From the IMG/VR virus record IMGVR_UViG_3300023112_000071, positions 1-30,238 of that record: a stretch of DNA of 30,238 bases; one strand, given 5' to 3'. Below the pieces are notes generated by a model. The model searched no databases, had not been told where the DNA came from, and was given only the letters and a program-made list of their open reading frames with translations. Each line of letters begins with the position of its first letter. Position 1 is the first letter of the stretch. The DNA comes from a virus. Of the stretch, positions 6,355 through 13,937 are shown one piece after another. Position numbers and translations under genes: made by a program.

Positions 6355-6483
6355 CTAGAAACACCCCGCCTTTGACAATAACAAAATAAACCCACCAAGA
6401 CTTAACAATGATATGCCAAGTGAAACTGACATGGAAATTAATAATCTAGATGACTCTTCTATACTTGGTTTTTTATTTTCCAT
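6355..6483 (-). CDS. 42-aa single-pass membrane peptide coupled to queD
   Basis: The ATG at 6483 shares its A with the queD stop (TGATG), and AAGGGAAG lies upstream, so this is a real candidate rather than an internal frame. The peptide starts MENKKPSIEESSR (charged) and then has a long hydrophobic helix (LLISMSVSLGISLLSLGGFILLL) ending KAGCF. One membrane span with the N-terminus probably cytoplasmic is predicted. Function is unknown. It is the last gene of the modification cassette and sits before the tail operon, so it could belong to either. Confidence 0.5.
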   Translation of the reverse strand: MENKKPSIEESSRLLISMSVSLGISLLSLGGFILLLSKAGCF

Positions 6484-6917
6484 CAATCTTCCCTTATTGA
6501 AAAATCTGCCCAACAATTGGGGGTTTCGTACACCCGTATTGCTGCTGTTTTTACACCATATGGCGTTAATAACTCGTTGCTTTTCATGTACAGATACTCT
6601 GCCATGTTCTCCGCTGTTGGGTTGCTCGGTAATGTATACAATTTCCAATTCTGTTCGTTGCATAGATTAATAATCTCCCCGTCGTTAATATTGACAATTG
6701 TTCCGTGATCCCACTTTTCATCAAGCCACTTACCAAACACGGCTTTGATCACACCAAAATCGATTACCCGTCCAAGCTCATCTAGTCCCATAGAACACGC
6801 GGTCACCTCAACCACATACCTGTGACCATGTAGGTTTCTGCACTTACTCTCATGCAGCATGACCCTGTGTGCGGCATCAAACTCAAGTTTCCTCGTACAA
6901 TACCGCAGTCCACTCAT
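6483..6917 (-). CDS. queD: 6-carboxytetrahydropterin synthase QueD
   Basis: QueD turns dihydroneopterin triphosphate into 6-carboxy-5,6,7,8-tetrahydropterin, the second step to preQ0. In the 144-aa protein the zinc histidines are H17 (FDAAHRV), H30 and H32 (CRNLHGH), with the catalytic Cys26 of the CxxxHGH motif present. Further family motifs are GRVIDFGVIK, DHGTIVN and NPTAENMAEYL, and the C-terminal VYETPNCWA segment holds the conserved Glu. The start is placed at ATG 6917 rather than an upstream ATG at 6932, because it makes an ATGA overlap with the ParB-like stop and has GGAG at good spacing. It is separated from queE, folE and queC by dpdA and two parB-like genes. Confidence 0.92.
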   Translation of the reverse strand: MSGLRYCTRKLEFDAAHRVMLHESKCRNLHGHRYVVEVTACSMGLDELGRVIDFGVIKAVFGKWLDEKWDHGTIVNINDGEIINLCNEQNWKLYTLPSNPTAENMAEYLYMKSNELLTPYGVKTAAIRVYETPNCWADFSIRED

Positions 6918-7606
6918 CGTGCTTTTCTCCAATCTTTAAGCATTGCATTAATAACTACACCAACATCCGTAGTATCTAAAAACTTTGAGTAGGCTTCAAA
7001 TATCTGCAACCACCGCCCATAAACATCCATAGTCACCTTCCCCCGAAGGTTGCCTACCGTAAACATAGCAAATCTATGGTCCACATAAGTCTGTTCTGGC
7101 CGCTTGTGGGATCTGGTGCTACCATCACCCTCTTCTTTGTTGCTGGGTTCTTCTGGTGTCGTTTCTACCGCATCAGCCAACGCACGCAAATCTGATAATG
7201 TAGCAGCATCAAAACCAGTAAGGTTCAGATCGTCAAACTCTGGGTCCACTAAATTATCAAGCTCCTCAATATAATTTGGAAGCATTGACCAATCCCAGTC
7301 ACCATCGCTCTGGTTGTCTCGTATGGCCACCATTCGGGCTTCTTGCTCTGTCCCTTCAAAGTACACCACCGGGATGGTGTCTGGCACCTTTTCGCCCCTA
7401 CCAAGCATCTCCTTTATCACATCAAGGCGCTGGTTTCCCCCAATGACCACCGCCTCCTTGTCTGGGTTTTGCCAAACAAGGAGCGGCTTAAACAGACCAA
7501 ATGCACGCAGGGATTCACGAAGTCTTCTACGCCCCTTTCCGTCAATGGTTCGCGGGTTATCCGCTAATGGTCGTAATTTTTCTACACTTACATAATTAAT
7601 CTGCAT
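6914..7606 (-). CDS. ParB/Srx-fold protein, second tandem paralogue
   Basis: The 230-aa protein has an N-terminal ParB-like domain: NPRTID (about 17-22), FGLFKPLLVW (36-45), the nucleotide-binding-type VIGGNQRL (54-61) and RDNQSDGDWDW (96-106). The C-terminal 50 residues (YVDHRFAMFTVGNLRGKVTMDVYGRWLQIF...) are conserved with the ParB-like gene just upstream, so this is a whole-length duplication. ParB/Srx-fold proteins include CTP-binding partition proteins and nucleases. Phage versions often sit with DNA methylases or hypermodification genes. No partner ParA or parS site is visible. ATG 7606 was chosen over a longer frame to 7657 because GGGGAAG precedes it. It overlaps the upstream gene by 11 bp. 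Confidence 0.8.
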   Translation of the reverse strand: MQINYVSVEKLRPLADNPRTIDGKGRRRLRESLRAFGLFKPLLVWQNPDKEAVVIGGNQRLDVIKEMLGRGEKVPDTIPVVYFEGTEQEARMVAIRDNQSDGDWDWSMLPNYIEELDNLVDPEFDDLNLTGFDAATLSDLRALADAVETTPEEPSNKEEGDGSTRSHKRPEQTYVDHRFAMFTVGNLRGKVTMDVYGRWLQIFEAYSKFLDTTDVGVVINAMLKDWRKAR

Positions 7607-8348
7607 TGATCTTCCCCACTCGTCCATTGATTTCAAGGTCATCCAACATCGCCGCAAAGATTACAGGAATATCCGTTGATCCAAGCCTATCGGAGTACTT
7701 TTCAAAAATCTCTAGCCATTCTCCGTAGTGGTCTACCGTTATCCTCCCCCTCACATTTCCAATAACAAACCGTGCAAACCGCTTCCTAACCTTGTCTTTT
7801 GCTGCCGCCTCTGGGCTTATGCCGGGATCTTGTTCATCCTCCATAAATGGATCTTCATTATCCTCAACACTTGAGTACCTATCAAGATCTGCATCTGATG
7901 ATTCCGCCAGCTCTATCAAATCTTCTAGGTCTTCTTTCCCAAAGCCCATCAATTCTGGATCGAGTTTATTATCTTCGGCCATGTTGGTTAATGAAGACAC
8001 ATATGTAGGCAATTTCTGCCAATCCCAATCACCATCAGACTTATTGTCTCTCAAGGCGATAATTCTGGCTGCTTTTTCTGATCCCTTAAACTGTATTGTC
8101 GGTATTTCTGCTGGAAACTGGTCACCCGCATCTTTCATTGTTCGTAACGCACGGAGCCTCTGATTACCCCCAATTACAACCAGTCTGCCACCCGCATTTT
8201 CCCACACAAGCAATGGCTTAAACAAACCAAACTGCTTGATTGAATTAATCAGCTTATTGATCCCACTTTCATCAATAGAACGAGGGTTATCTTCAAAACC
8301 TGATAATAATGAAATGTTCCTATACTCTATCTCAAGTTCTTGCGTCAC
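7596..8348 (-). CDS. ParB/Srx-fold protein, first tandem paralogue
   Basis: The 250-aa protein carries NPRSID (21-26), FGLFKPLLVW (41-50), VIGGNQRLRAL (58-68) and RDNKSDGDWDW (100-110), matching the ParB-like domain of its downstream paralogue. An acidic, low-complexity linker (about 140-180) follows, then the shared C-terminal domain (RFARFVIGNVRGRITVDHYGEWLEIF). GTG 8348 is preferred because GAGGTG lies five bases upstream; GTG 8363 lacks a site. The gene overlaps dpdA by 17 bp. Context suggests a role in recognising, protecting or cutting modified or unmodified DNA. That is inference; the sequence shows only the fold and duplication. Confidence 0.8.
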   Translation of the reverse strand: MTQELEIEYRNISLLSGFEDNPRSIDESGINKLINSIKQFGLFKPLLVWENAGGRLVVIGGNQRLRALRTMKDAGDQFPAEIPTIQFKGSEKAARIIALRDNKSDGDWDWQKLPTYVSSLTNMAEDNKLDPELMGFGKEDLEDLIELAESSDADLDRYSSVEDNEDPFMEDEQDPGISPEAAAKDKVRKRFARFVIGNVRGRITVDHYGEWLEIFEKYSDRLGSTDIPVIFAAMLDDLEINGRVGKINAD

Positions 8349-9264
8349 CGGACACCTCTGCACACTGTTTTTTAATTAACGTCATTGCATACTCACAGTT
8401 GTCCCTTACAACCTCTGCTAAATATACAGTTATCTGATTTTCTGACTTATCTATACGGACTTCATTCTCGTGTCGTTGTGCAGCAAGCCACGACCAAATT
8501 GAAATTTGCAACATGTCCGCTCGCTGATCGGCACTATCCCTAATAAACGCTGTTGGACGCACTCCATACGGTCTAATCGTATACCCATACTTCATGATTC
8601 GTGGATCTCTTGCTCTAACAAGTCTCCATCTGGAATATTTCAAATCCCAGAACATTAAAGCCCCCCACATATATCCAGCCGCCCATGATGCTGAATCAAT
8701 AGATGCCCACGGATATGCAGAAACAATATCCCAAGTTGTACACCCAAACCCATGTAGTCGGATTCCCAACTCTTTAGCAATTGTATGGCACTCGTTTAAC
8801 CAGTCTAGTGCCTCACAACTCCTGCCCGCCCTTATTGCTGGAACCATCTTCATGGTTTGCGGAACCAGTCCACCAAGGCACATATAGTCATAACCATGCT
8901 TATGATACCTAACTAGCTCTTCTGGATTCGTACCAAAATGGATAACTGGAAGTGGCCGAAGCCCCATCGCTTCCATTTTCAATTGATTCCGTAGGGTAAG
9001 TGCTTGATTGCCAATCTCATCAATATTGGCGTATATATCAATAACATTAGAATGTTTACGCAAAAACCTAGCATATTGCTCAACAGAGATCTCTACATTC
9101 TTATAGGAAGCTGTAAATCCCCCAGAATCAACAAAGACACGGGGTCTGTATGGCATTTCTGCCAACATTCTACTTAAATCCGTTTTCATAAAATGGAAAT
9201 AACTAAAGAGAAAACCTATTTCTTTCTCTTTAGCTGGACCTAACCATTTAGAATACTCATCCAT
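8332..9264 (-). CDS. dpdA: DpdA-type DNA 7-deazaguanine transglycosylase
   Basis: DpdA proteins are relatives of tRNA-guanine transglycosylase (TGT) that exchange guanine in DNA for a 7-deazaguanine such as preQ0. The 310-aa protein keeps TGT-like landmarks: VDSGGF (45-50, base-binding Asp), NIDEIG (80-85), VIHFG (107-111), CLGGLVPQ (129-136), HGFGC (171-175) and SIDSASW (188-194), which holds a candidate nucleophile Asp190. It lacks the C-terminal zinc-binding Cys cluster of bacterial TGT, as expected for DpdA. The C-terminal 100 residues (WRLVRARDPRIMKYGYTIRPYG) look basic and may bind DNA. It overlaps queC by 8 bp and the first parB-like gene by 17 bp, so it is co-translated with the pathway. 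Confidence 0.87.
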   Translation of the reverse strand: MDEYSKWLGPAKEKEIGFLFSYFHFMKTDLSRMLAEMPYRPRVFVDSGGFTASYKNVEISVEQYARFLRKHSNVIDIYANIDEIGNQALTLRNQLKMEAMGLRPLPVIHFGTNPEELVRYHKHGYDYMCLGGLVPQTMKMVPAIRAGRSCEALDWLNECHTIAKELGIRLHGFGCTTWDIVSAYPWASIDSASWAAGYMWGALMFWDLKYSRWRLVRARDPRIMKYGYTIRPYGVRPTAFIRDSADQRADMLQISIWSWLAAQRHENEVRIDKSENQITVYLAEVVRDNCEYAMTLIKKQCAEVSGDART

Positions 9265-9973
9265 TCGTGGAACATCCAGAATCCAATCTAGTCAACAGCG
9301 GATCTGCCACTCCAGCATCATCAAATCCCTTCGCCCGTAAGATGCAAGCATGGCACTTTCCACACGGAGGGACCATACCCTTATAGCAGGTATGCGAATG
9401 GCTCATCGCTTCCATGCACCCATCTAAACCAACCGCCATCTCCACCGTTTCACGTTTTGTTAAATGCATCAATGGCGTATGGATTCTAACTAGCATATCT
9501 GATTCAATACCCCAAATTCCCGCCTGTAATGCCTCTTCCATCCTTGCAATAAAGTCGGCTCGACAATCTGGGTATCCACCATAGTCCTCTTCGCAGACAC
9601 CAGTAATCAAATTTGTATATCCCTTAACTACCGCCCTATTAGCAGCTACAGTTAGGAATAATATATTCCTACAAGGTACAAATGTAGGCTCAATCCCACC
9701 GGGTAACTGCTCCGCATTCTCATATTGTCCCACTTCATGTTCTGGATTAACTAATGGGCTAGTTCCATGAAGCAATCTAGACAATTCTAGTACCTCATGT
9801 TCAACACCGGCATCAGCAGCAATCTTTGTGGCCGCATCTACCTCTACCGCATGTCTCTGACCATAAACAATTGTCAACGCAGACACATTTTTCCACCGCT
9901 TCTGTGCCCAATACAGACAGGTTGTACTGTCCTGCCCTCCACTTAACAACACCAACGCGCCATCCGGTTTCAT
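9257..9973 (-). CDS. queC: 7-cyano-7-deazaguanine (preQ0) synthase QueC
   Basis: QueC converts 7-carboxy-7-deazaguanine to preQ0 using ATP and ammonia. The 238-aa protein has the PP-loop LLSGGQDSTT (9-18), a VYGQRH segment (36-41) and the zinc site C196, C204, C207, C210 (CYKG...CGKCHAC). The length matches stand-alone QueC. There is no fused amidotransferase domain as in the archaeosine-type phage enzymes, which bears on the final base. ATG 9973 has TAGGAG upstream. It follows folE by 8 bp and overlaps dpdA. Confidence 0.93.
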   Translation of the reverse strand: MKPDGALVLLSGGQDSTTCLYWAQKRWKNVSALTIVYGQRHAVEVDAATKIAADAGVEHEVLELSRLLHGTSPLVNPEHEVGQYENAEQLPGGIEPTFVPCRNILFLTVAANRAVVKGYTNLITGVCEEDYGGYPDCRADFIARMEEALQAGIWGIESDMLVRIHTPLMHLTKRETVEMAVGLDGCMEAMSHSHTCYKGMVPPCGKCHACILRAKGFDDAGVADPLLTRLDSGCSTNG

Positions 9974-9981
9974 ACGATCTC

Positions 9982-10566
9982 CTACCTACTTTCACGTTCA
10001 ACAAGAGCCAGAAATTCTGCTCTAGTTTCTGGGTTTTCTCTAAACCTTCCATACATGGCAGAAGTAGTCATCACCACATTGGACTTACGCACTCCTCTCG
10101 TTGTCATGCAATGGTGCTTTGCCTCTACCACTACCGCTACCCCCAATGGATCTAATGTCTCAGAGATCGCATCTGCTATCTGTCTGGTCATCTTTTCCTG
10201 TATCTGTAAACGCTTACTATACAGTTCAACAATCCGAGCTAATTTCGAGATTCCAACAACTTTATCCTTTGGCAAATACCCAACATGAGCCACACCAATG
10301 ATTGGAACCATGTGATGTTCACAATGAGATTGAAAATCAATATTGCTCAACAATATGATTTCATCATAACCATTACTTTCTGAAAAGGTTCTTGATAGAA
10401 TCTCACGCGGGTCTTGATCATACCCCGAAAACCATTCGCCATATGCTTTTACTACCCGCTTTGGAGTATCCAGTAAACCCTCTCTGCTTGGGTCATCCCC
10501 CGCATACCGCAATAATGTCCTAATGGCGTTTTCGGCCTCTTCTTTACTAACTCCATGCTCACTCAC
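9982..10566 (-). CDS. folE: GTP cyclohydrolase I FolE
   Basis: FolE opens GTP to dihydroneopterin triphosphate, the first step of both folate and preQ0 synthesis. The 194-aa protein shows the family landmarks: [12 protein letters not shown] (31-42), the zinc-binding [12 protein letters not shown] (80-91, Cys82 and His84/85), [20 protein letters not shown] (105-124) and the second zinc Cys in HHCMTTRG (151-158). The GTG start at 10566 lies in a GTGA overlap with the queE stop, with GAGGT upstream. Placement among queE and queC shows it feeds the 7-deazaguanine pathway rather than folate. Confidence 0.95.
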
Positions 10567-11255
10567 GGCAACCTCGCGTATTTATGTGTTTGAAATGATA
10601 CTCGCCATCCAACATGCTTCTGGGCCATTTCCATAGCGAAATCAATATTGGACAAGCCCTTACCATCTATATCTTTCGGCTGGAAAAACTTATGCGGAAA
10701 TCCCCACCTATCCTTACAAAACTCATTAATTGCCGAATCTGACCACATTGTTGGAACGATAATCTTTAAGTCTGTCCCATGCCGCAGCTTTATATGCTCC
10801 CACGAAACATCTTTATCTTTGGTGGAAACGTCTGATTTTGGACTCACGGTGATGTGATCAAACAACTCTAAAACTGGGTCATCAATAGTCCCATTGGTTT
10901 CTATTGCAAGCCAAACATCCTCGCCCTTTAGAGCCTTACATAACTCCACACCCGTCTTTTTTCGCAATTGAAGAAGAGGCTCACCACCCGACATGACCAC
11001 CATACAGTGTTCCCATCCCTCACGAAGTTCATTCACCTTCTCTACAATTTCATCTGGTGTTAAAAACTCACCGCTGGCAAAATCTGTGTCGCACCACTGG
11101 GCACACTCACCTCTGCCACTTCCTCGACCGGACTCCAAGCCACTCCACAAGTTGCAACCACTAAAGCGTATAAAAACTGCTGGCTTTCCAGTTTGACTAC
11201 CTTCACCCTGAACTGTTGGGAATATCTCCCTAATCTTTAATTTGCCAACACTCAC
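10563..11255 (-). CDS. queE: 7-carboxy-7-deazaguanine synthase QueE (radical SAM)
   Basis: QueE rearranges 6-carboxytetrahydropterin to 7-carboxy-7-deazaguanine with SAM and a 4Fe-4S cluster. The 230-aa protein begins [13 protein letters not shown], has [10 protein letters not shown] (28-37) with the first cluster Cys34, then a 16-residue insert and CAQWCDTDF (51-59) with Cys51 and Cys55. [12 protein letters not shown] is the SAM-binding GGEP motif, followed by AIETNGT and VSPK. The cluster spacing C-x16-C-x3-C is longer than the common C-x14-C-x2-C of the CNLW-type QueE. GTG 11255 is chosen because it forms a GTGA overlap with the preceding stop and aligns with the family start; the frame is open to 11333. 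Confidence 0.92.
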
Positions 11256-11515
11256 AACTGACCCCCAAGCAATAACACACATGTCATAACCGCGATCACA
11301 CCAACCAGCGCACCAATCACCCATAACTTCCACTGGTATGGCTCATTCTTTGGTGGAGCCAGTATGAGCGCGATTGATACTCCGTTTTTTTCTTCTACTG
11401 CAATCGGGGCAATAACCGTCCACCCATCCGATAATAATAAACTTAATGCTGGATCATCGACAGATCTATCAAGATCTTCCGTTGATATTCTATAAACCCT
11501 ACATCTTTCTCCCAC
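11252..11515 (-). CDS. Small protein with C-terminal membrane anchor
   Basis: This 87-aa protein has a soluble N-terminal part (residues 1-58, with EDLDRSVDDPALSLLLSDGWTVIAPIAVEE) and one strong membrane helix at about 62-84 (WKLWVIGALVGVIAVMTCVLLL). It is a predicted tail-anchored protein with its domain in the cytoplasm. The GTG start at 11515 has GGAGG five bases upstream, a very good site. It overlaps queE by four bases. No family was recognised. Its place at the head of the queE-folE-queC run makes a role beside the modification enzymes possible but unproven. Confidence 0.65.
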   Translation of the reverse strand: MGERCRVYRISTEDLDRSVDDPALSLLLSDGWTVIAPIAVEEKNGVSIALILAPPKNEPYQWKLWVIGALVGVIAVMTCVLLLGGQL

Positions 11516-11821: not shown

Positions 11822-12087
11822 TTCTCTTCCTGTTGTTCAGACAAACCATTTAGAAAGCCTACAGCCTCCCCTAGAAGTTTATCTACTGTGTCTTGCTTAT
11901 ATTCTTTTGAAAACGACTCCAGCACGTCCACAAATCGCTCCATTTGATCCACTAATCTTGGTGCCTCAACTTCAAACGTATTTGCTATCCTCTCAACTTG
12001 ATTGGCTGTAAATGGTAGAGCTGGTGCAAACCTTATTAGCTTCTCCAGAGTAATTGCGATCTCTTCCATTGGTGATTGTGCAGCCAT
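11818..12087 (-). CDS. Small helical protein, unknown function
   Basis: This 89-aa protein is acidic and almost wholly helical by composition (MEEIAITLEKLIRFA, VERIANTFEVEAPRLVDQMERFVDVL), with a charged EQQEEK end. It may form a helical bundle or coiled coil. The ATG at 12087 shares a base with the preceding stop (TAATG). No family was recognised. Confidence 0.6.
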   Translation of the reverse strand: MAAQSPMEEIAITLEKLIRFAPALPFTANQVERIANTFEVEAPRLVDQMERFVDVLESFSKEYKQDTVDKLLGEAVGFLNGLSEQQEEK

Positions 12088-12401
12088 TATGACAATCCGC
12101 CAGCAAGCATTTTAACCATGTTCTTTATTCGCTCACCGGGAGTCAAATTATTAAACTCATCAGAATCCAAACCGGGAGTCACCCCAACAAAGGCACCAAA
12201 TATTCGAGCCATTAGCTTGCCCGTTCGTCTATTTTCTGCATCCTGTCCTGCCAAATACGCCACTTTAAGAAGGTCTAAAATCTGGGTCCGCTCTTGGTAA
12301 TCAAGTTTAGACAATATCCCATCCATCGTTGGTGTTTGGGTCAACTTCATTGTCTCAATCACCGCCAGCAAATCTCCTGTCCTCTCACCATCACCGCTCA
12401 T
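12087..12401 (-). CDS. Small helical protein, unknown function
   Basis: This 104-aa protein starts MSGDGERTGDLLAV and is mostly helical, with LDYQERTQILDLLKVAYLAGQDAENRRTGKLMARIFGA in the middle and PGERIKNMVKMLAGG at the end. ATG 12401 is preferred over a longer frame to 12437 because GGGGGAGG lies just upstream. It overlaps the TGT-like gene by 11 bp. No family was recognised. Confidence 0.6.
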   Translation of the reverse strand: MSGDGERTGDLLAVIETMKLTQTPTMDGILSKLDYQERTQILDLLKVAYLAGQDAENRRTGKLMARIFGAFVGVTPGLDSDEFNNLTPGERIKNMVKMLAGGLS

Positions 12402-13029
12402 CACGCCTCCCCCATAAATGACCTTGCATTGTTGCATTTTTCATCCGCTCCGCTGGCCTTTTATCCATATGGAAAAACCTTGAAACGCCAGAACCATCAA
12501 AACTATGTGCTCCCGCATCCTGACACTGGCGGATTCGCTTATTAGAATTAACTCTGCCCACATGGTAATAACAGTCCCTATCACGAGACATTTCACCCCA
12601 CATACGCATTGAATTAATCTTAAATTCCGTTGTTCCTCCCAAGAATATACCAATTCTGCTTCCAAGATATGGCTCCACATCATATGGATTCATATTATCT
12701 TGAACAGCAATTAGAAGTAATTTGATATGGGTTAGTTTATCTAACCACTTGAGACTAAAATCTAGTGATCTAGAACCCTCACCTACCACATCTGGAAGCA
12801 CCACCCAATCTGCACCGTCACCCATGCGGTCTATACCGTGCTGATATGCTGATTCATCAAATAGTATTCCTTGCTTATAGCAGGTCCAAGCACCACTATC
12901 CATAGCATATGGCGTGTCTGGCTGCGATAGCTTCGATGACCTATGCGCCGGAACCAACATGCGCCAACCCATATCGACAACTGGCTTACGCCGCTTCGCT
13001 GAACCTATATAGGAGGTATACCCTATCAT
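12391..13029 (-). CDS. Compact TGT/DpdA-like protein
   Basis: This 212-aa protein has the same ordered landmarks as the DpdA in this window, but in a shorter form: MDSGAW (43-48) for VDSGGF, LPDVVG (78-83), AVQDN (108-112), FLGGTTEFK (129-137) for the LGG loop, HVGRVNS (156-162) and SFDGSG (176-181) with a candidate Asp178. This supports a TGT-like TIM-barrel. Related short phage proteins are often named DpdA-family or queuine tRNA-ribosyltransferase-like. It may be a second base exchanger, a non-catalytic partner of DpdA, or act on another nucleobase. The ATG lies in an ATGA overlap with the 288-aa gene, without a clear ribosome binding site. Confidence 0.7.
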   Translation of the reverse strand: MIGYTSYIGSAKRRKPVVDMGWRMLVPAHRSSKLSQPDTPYAMDSGAWTCYKQGILFDESAYQHGIDRMGDGADWVVLPDVVGEGSRSLDFSLKWLDKLTHIKLLLIAVQDNMNPYDVEPYLGSRIGIFLGGTTEFKINSMRMWGEMSRDRDCYYHVGRVNSNKRIRQCQDAGAHSFDGSGVSRFFHMDKRPAERMKNATMQGHLWGRRDER

Positions 13030-13892
13030 GAAGCACTTTTTGAATACTTTACCGCTGCATTAACAACCCCCCACGCCAATTCACATGGGTTTGCTCCAAA
13101 ATAAACATTATCCGAATACTCTTGGCCCATCGCCAAAATCATGTATTCCCACGTTGGTTTTCCACCCAACTTTTTTACTTTGGATTGAAACGTATCAATC
13201 ATGCTTTCCAGCTGACCATTAGCAGAAATATCAAATCTAGAAATAATGCCAGATTCTTCAATTATTGTCTCGCTCCCAAAGTCATTAATACATACTACTG
13301 GAGGACAATTTCTATCTGAATTATCGGTATGCGTTAATACTCCAAAGACCGCTAACCCCTCCTCATCCAGACCACTAACAATAGTCCACGGCTCCTCCTT
13401 CGCTGATAAGTCGGGCTTTGGTGTAGGGAAGGTGAGTAATTGCTGTTGCTTGGTAAACCCAATGGTCACTTTAGAACCAAGAGATTCACAAAGCACACCG
13501 GCACTATCAATATTAACTTCAAATAACCTAATTCTAAATACTACAGAAGCCGCGCCGGGAACAGCATTATAGACCACTGTTCTCACACAAGCCCTGCCAT
13601 CAAACAATTGCAACAACGCATCAGACTGTTTTAATGAAACAAATAAGTCCTCTGCTGAAGGGTTCACCCTTACGGATGTTTTAAGTTGTTCATCTCCATC
13701 CTCTGTACGCAAGTACATCGCTAACGCACCGGGAATAAGTTTATCTACTACCTTTGCATCCAAATCTGACGCAAGCATAAATGCCAAATCTAGATCAAAC
13801 AGCAACTCGTTGTCCGCTGTCCCATCGCGCCTAATTCCTATTTTATTAATGAATCCCGCTGCCTCATTGGTGGCTTTCGTTAAATCAAGCAT
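13026..13892 (-). CDS. Unknown 288-aa protein next to the TGT-like gene
   Basis: The protein starts MLDLTKATNEAAGFINKIGIRRDG, has LLFDLDLAFMLASDLDAKVVDKLIPGALAM (about 30-60), a mixed alpha/beta middle and a C-terminal FGANPCELAWGVVNAAVKY. No membrane segment, cysteine cluster or nucleotide-binding loop is evident. The ATG at 13892 is preferred over the adjacent GTG because AGGAGG lies at ideal spacing. It is translationally coupled to the TGT-like gene and follows the primase-helicase by 42 bp. It may belong to replication or to modification; no family was recognised. Confidence 0.7.
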   Translation of the reverse strand: MLDLTKATNEAAGFINKIGIRRDGTADNELLFDLDLAFMLASDLDAKVVDKLIPGALAMYLRTEDGDEQLKTSVRVNPSAEDLFVSLKQSDALLQLFDGRACVRTVVYNAVPGAASVVFRIRLFEVNIDSAGVLCESLGSKVTIGFTKQQQLLTFPTPKPDLSAKEEPWTIVSGLDEEGLAVFGVLTHTDNSDRNCPPVVCINDFGSETIIEESGIISRFDISANGQLESMIDTFQSKVKKLGGKPTWEYMILAMGQEYSDNVYFGANPCELAWGVVNAAVKYSKSAS

Positions 13893-13937
13893 CACGCCTC
13901 CTAGTCTACTTATCTAAAAACCCTAAAAGTTACAGCC

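Follow-up and report, generated by a model that had tools for sequence, protein, structure and literature searches.

A compact, putative 7-deazaguanine DNA transglycosylase family in phages that mostly lack a detectable canonical DpdA

The closest described relatives of the system analysed here are the tRNA-guanine transglycosylases (TGTs), which are dimers, and the phage proteins of the DpdA type, for which DpdA3 and DpdA4 were reportedly defined in a 2023 paper. A resemblance to TGT is already recorded in the annotations of a few actinophages. In phage CAjan, DpdA is credited with both the GA and the GGC context (cited in PMC8306585). Phage homologues of the transporter YhhQ have been described as present without correlation to any phage group (Hutinet et al., PMC6884629).

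The window, i.e., the whole stretch of DNA analysed here (30,238 bases, virus record IMGVR_UViG_3300023112_000071), encodes a canonical DpdA and, 3.1 kb away, a second protein (P0001) that is 98 amino acids shorter, much as the initial annotation had estimated when it described a compact TGT-like protein paired with a 288-aa protein. The relevant genes are as follows:

6483..6932, minus strand: QueD, 6-carboxytetrahydropterin synthase (PF01242 above cut-off; TIGR03367 E 7e-23, just below cut-off)
8332..9264, minus strand: canonical phage DpdA, 310 aa (phrog_887 E 2.1e-40; catalytic motifs in alignment A4)
9257..9973, minus strand: QueC, preQ0 synthase (TIGR00364 above cut-off)
9982..10566, minus strand: FolE, GTP cyclohydrolase I (TIGR00063 above cut-off)
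10563..11333, minus strand: QueE, 7-carboxy-7-deazaguanine synthase (TIGR04508 E 2.6e-42, below curated cut-off), whose true start is probably downstream of the listed GTG
12087..12437, minus strand: 116-aa gene next downstream of P0001, with no assigned function (100% identical in contigs L005/L006)
12391..13029, minus strand: P0001, putative compact DpdA/TGT-like transglycosylase, 212 aa (phrog_15826 E 1.3e-32)
13026..13892, minus strand: P0002, 288-aa protein, function not assigned (ORF with ATG start)

Since QueE, FolE, QueC and QueD are all encoded in the window, the preQ0 pathway is complete. Downstream of P0001, the genes follow in the order QueE, FolE, QueC, DpdA, two ParB-like genes and QueD. 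A ParB-like gene abuts canonical DpdA in three unrelated phages (window 6914-8363; L011:9263-9856; L042:10926-11543), and the two tandem copies of the window resemble the ParB-like N-termini of phage DNA methyltransferases; a ParB-like protein is a possible DpdA partner. Both ORFs of the annotated pair exist and share a start/stop overlap, ATGA (TCAT at 13026-13029 of the plus strand). A strong AGGAGG Shine-Dalgarno motif stands just 5' of the P0002 ATG (an in-frame GTG at 13895 would yield 289 instead of 288 aa) and P0001 has none, an arrangement that fits the translational coupling proposed for the two genes.

P0001 carries the DSGAW (residues 44-48), LGG (130-132), HVGR (156-159) and SFDGSG (176-181) landmarks in DpdA order, as first noticed, and its key residues are D44 (DSG), P79-D80, Q110-D111, G131-G132, H156-G-R-V-N161 and D178-G179. 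Among 86 relatives of P0001, D44, D80, Q110, G131-G132, H156, R159, N161, R165 and D178 are 96-100% conserved, so that the aspartates on which the TGT-like assignment depended are retained across homologues. Together with a dN/dS of 0.043 against the near-identical contig L006, this conservation identifies P0001 as a real gene. Its AlphaFold2 model, built from an input alignment of 63 IMG/VR relatives (pLDDT 91.2, pTM 0.89), forms a small (beta/alpha)8 barrel that is complete, its eight strands alternating with helices, as expected from the initial annotation. Foldseek comparison of this model with the PDB returned TGTs at all of ranks 1-16 (E 3.5e-5 to 2e-4), and the BFVD structure matches include phage queuine tRNA-ribosyltransferases. 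VIA-align superposed P0001 and TGT with a Z of 15.6 and an rmsd of 3.0 over 204 residues, and gave the same Z for pyruvate kinase barrels, which VIA does not separate from TGT. Therefore, the fold of P0001 is not decisive alone, and the residue pattern is. In the model, D44 follows strand 3, D80 strand 4, Q110-D111 strand 5, G131-G132 strand 6 and HVGRVN strand 7, with D178 within strand 8, and all of these positions are close to invariant. We take D102, D156, Q203, G229-G230 and the nucleophile D280 of Zymomonas mobilis TGT, matched by order, to be the counterparts of these residues. Judged from the model and the residue conservation, P0001 combines the fold of the TGT superfamily with its conserved catalytic core, the fold match not being exclusive to TGT.

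Sequence profiles place the protein less readily. P0001 itself matched phrog_15826 and no Pfam TGT, NCBIfam or DpdA profile, PDB sequence searches with P0001 or A1 gave nothing credible, and none of nine compact family members matched PF01702, the Pfam TGT family. No cysteine is conserved among 64 compact sequences; the family therefore lacks the TGT zinc site. Aligned with hhalign, the compact profile and canonical DpdA have DSGA in register (E 4.7e-5, probability 68%), with a shallow DpdA alignment of five sequences, and the DpdA profile phrog_887 weakly matches compact ORFs in some relatives of P0001.

The P0001 family corresponds to PHROG 15826, labelled "unknown function", and its profile recovers at least 522 stretches in IMG/VR, along with 58 loci in genomes of bacteria or archaea. 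Relatives found by tblastn occur in phages of Erythrobacter, Vibrio, Escherichia, Synechococcus, Mycobacterium, Arthrobacter and Rhodococcus, several of them already annotated as "DpdA-like tRNA-guanine transglycosylase". A Que gene lies in the flank of the compact gene in 28 of 76 non-redundant viral contigs, a 37% linkage that was measured among the 80 loci nearest to P0001 and should not be read as a family-wide rate. QueC accounts for most of it (24 contigs, within 500 bp of the compact gene in 22), and QueD (four contigs), QueE (three) and FolE (one) also adjoin compact genes; Pfam confirms these Que identities. At nine further non-redundant loci (L007, L009, L010, L154, L155, L156, L158, L038 and L059), mostly of actinobacterial phages and genomes, a YhhQ/Vut_1-like queuosine-precursor transporter that scores below the NCBIfam and above the Pfam Vut_1 cut-off is encoded at most 500 bp from the compact gene. 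These belong to phages of Mycobacterium, Arthrobacter and Rhodococcus, to Nocardia and Streptacidiphilus, to one Chloroflexia and one Saccharibacteria MAG and to the viral contigs L038 and L059. The YhhQ-like transporter thus appears to correlate with the compact family. Nearby supply genes are missing from roughly 60% of the viral contigs and, with four exceptions, from the 58 genome loci, as judged from profile searches of 8-kb flanks, where absence from the flank does not equal absence from the genome. A quick FastTree phylogeny served solely to see whether the labels turn up repeatedly; in it, both the Que and the transporter label require at least four changes, as forced by starred branches. 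The compact family hence shows the genomic link to 7-deazaguanine synthesis or uptake genes that serves to recognise the functional DpdA class.

Canonical DpdA rarely accompanies the compact gene. A phrog_887 search of 50 whole records with a compact gene detected a clear DpdA only in R29Z, Sonali and the contig of L042 (in the IMG/VR subset, one of 44 whole contigs); PHROG 7068 pointed to the same three records, and no DpdA2 or CP220-type protein was found among 25 compact-bearing records searched. As canonical DpdA is nearly always absent, the compact protein is usually the sole candidate inserter, and in a few phages a second one. Both enzymes are intact in four unrelated phages, i.e., that of the window, Sonali, R29Z and contig L042, with their genes 1.2-3.1 kb apart and never adjacent.

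The Seuratviruses SHIN8 (Japan; L012:6648-7240) and phiG7 (China; L160:2001-2593) encode DpdA along with a compact gene split into two overlapping ORFs. The split falls at a TGGGGC run in SHIN8, and the phiG7 ORFs have the same lengths; either a shared frameshift mutation or a programmed frameshift may explain this reading of the two sequences.

The only relative of P0002 is in the sister contig L005 (88% identical). No family or homologue was found in PHROGs, Pfam, NCBIfam, PADLOC, PDB sequences or phages at E up to 10, in line with its initial description as a protein of no recognised family. The pairing with P0001 holds in this phage lineage and does not extend further, P0002 being absent from all other compact loci searched and from the 50 whole records with a compact gene. 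P0002 is a lineage-specific operon neighbour, not a conserved partner of the compact family. Its AlphaFold2 model is unusable (pLDDT 33). Compared with the sister contig, dN/dS is 0.015 over residues 1-155 and 0.209 over the remainder, which suggests two domains under different selection. P0002 was also considered as a positional analogue of the sliding-clamp-like protein encoded by the gene before the compact one in R29Z and SHIN8, an idea with no support at the sequence level.

Fold, conserved residues and gene context jointly support the compact TGT-like identity, and we consider it probable that P0001 is a 7-deazaguanine DNA transglycosylase, a compact enzyme of the DpdA type that usually works alone. 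It would be a minimal guanine transglycosylase, reduced to the TIM barrel itself and with no recognisable zinc site of the TGT kind. By analogy with TGT, the nucleophilic D178 (D280-like) would cut the guanine-sugar bond through a covalent intermediate, and D44/D80 and Q110 would bind the base. The base that the protein is predicted to install is a 7-deazaguanine, for example preQ0, and it would most probably enter phage DNA once this has been replicated. Most relatives seem to be the sole transglycosylase of their phage, with base supplied by phage QueC (with or without QueD/E/FolE), by a YhhQ-like importer or presumably by the host. Mycobacterium phage Orion, which has DpdA without the pathway and no modification (PMC6884629, PMC8306585), counts against this reading. 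In the window phage, P0001 would draw on the same phage-made preQ0 as the canonical DpdA beside it and most simply serve other sequence contexts; that it acts on a distinct target context is a tentative proposal, which we rate somewhat below an even chance. Since DpdA is credited with both GA and GGC in CAjan, two motifs do not by themselves call for a second enzyme, which makes retention of the compact gene in the window phage informative.

Among other explanations, P0001 might insert a 7-deazaguanine different from that of DpdA, so that one genome would contain two modified bases. Two transglycosylase folds in one preQ0 operon, with differing pockets (compact QD versus DpdA H.G/N), speak for it, but no QueF, ArcS or Gat-QueC tailoring gene was recognised in the window ORFs scanned. 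A single base, preQ0, is therefore predicted, and a second one is unlikely. RNA, i.e., phage or host tRNA, as the target is distinctly unlikely: although the closest solved structures are tRNA-guanine transglycosylases and preQ0 is a tRNA precursor, P0001 has 212 residues against the 360-380 of TGT and no conserved cysteine for a zinc subdomain, its gene is surrounded by DNA replication, recombination and DNA methylase genes, and characterised phage homologues act on DNA (PMC6884629).

The initial annotation had also raised a heteromeric enzyme, in which P0001 would be the accessory subunit of DpdA, as in the eukaryotic QTRT1/QTRT2 TGT. The dimeric state of TGTs would accommodate such an assembly, as would the phages that encode both proteins (window, Sonali, R29Z and L042, with SHIN8 and phiG7 combining DpdA and the split compact gene). 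However, nearly all records tested have the compact protein and no detectable DpdA, the compact protein has kept its catalytic residues, unlike a dead subunit, and the two genes are never neighbours where they coexist. This disfavours the heteromer, which we regard as quite improbable. Even further from the evidence, and highly improbable, is a different small TIM-barrel enzyme, epimerase- or phosphodiesterase-like and unrelated to base exchange. Epimerases, triosephosphate isomerase and pyruvate kinase do figure among the structure matches, but the top Foldseek rank goes to TGT, whose motif order and strand-end positions P0001 also matches, and on many branches QueC, QueD, QueE, FolE or queuosine-precursor transporters accompany the gene.

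Judged by the literature consulted, what appears to be new is that these proteins make up a single widespread compact family, tied to QueC or a precursor transporter and mostly found without DpdA; it may overlap with DpdA3 and DpdA4. A broader reading, possible but held with less than even confidence, is that of a broad, hitherto undescribed subfamily of DNA transglycosylases of ~200 aa, smaller than any others of this type, which are the sole 7-deazaguanine inserters in many phages, obtain the base from QueC, an importer or the host, and in some phages serve a second set of contexts beside DpdA. If P0001 is indeed a DNA transglycosylase, a function could be assigned to PHROG 15826, which is present in hundreds of phages and prophages, and QueC-bearing phages without canonical DpdA would gain a candidate inserter, which may bear on how phages disguise their DNA. 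The family may also indicate the minimum size of such an enzyme and would offer a minimal TGT scaffold to study or engineer DNA base exchange. Two-enzyme phages allow a direct test of whether the transglycosylases divide sequence contexts.

Compared with known systems, P0001 shares its fold and the order of catalytic residues with bacterial and archaeal TGTs (PF01702), and differs in having no zinc site, no tRNA-binding parts and no PF01702 match. DpdA2 of Vibrio phage nt-1 (464 aa) has a TGT-like fold, and its model R9TGF0 is among the BFVD matches of P0001, but it is more than twice as long, and the compact profile found no match in nt-1. Campylobacter phage CP220 encodes a 258-aa hypothetical protein, CPT_0056 (L101:2676-3452), which matches the compact profile only marginally (E 0.006) and has a motif string like that of the compact family (PDALGD, VQGN, HLLG); with SLDTSNP added, these TGT-like motifs suggest that it may be the missing guanine transglycosylase of CP220 and perhaps corresponds to DpdA3. 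The BFVD entry A0A0F7L9Z1, a 499-aa protein of an uncultured marine virus, joins a compact domain (39% identical over 211 columns) to ~290 further residues, and the other half of this natural fusion could reveal a partner of the compact domain. Canonical phage DpdA (9g/CAjan type; PHROG 887/7068) has in common with P0001 the TGT-type barrel, the DSG motif, the catalytic aspartate in the last strand and the preQ0 neighbourhood; it is ~100 aa longer, has a histidine in place of the conserved Gln-Asp of the compact family and is alignable by sequence in its first part only, P0001 giving no match to the PHROG 887/7068 profiles. The "DpdA-like tRNA-guanine transglycosylases" of Mycobacterium cluster P, Arthrobacter and Rhodococcus phages belong to the same compact family (25-31% identical) and, with no que genes except in Sonali, have the YhhQ-like transporter next door.
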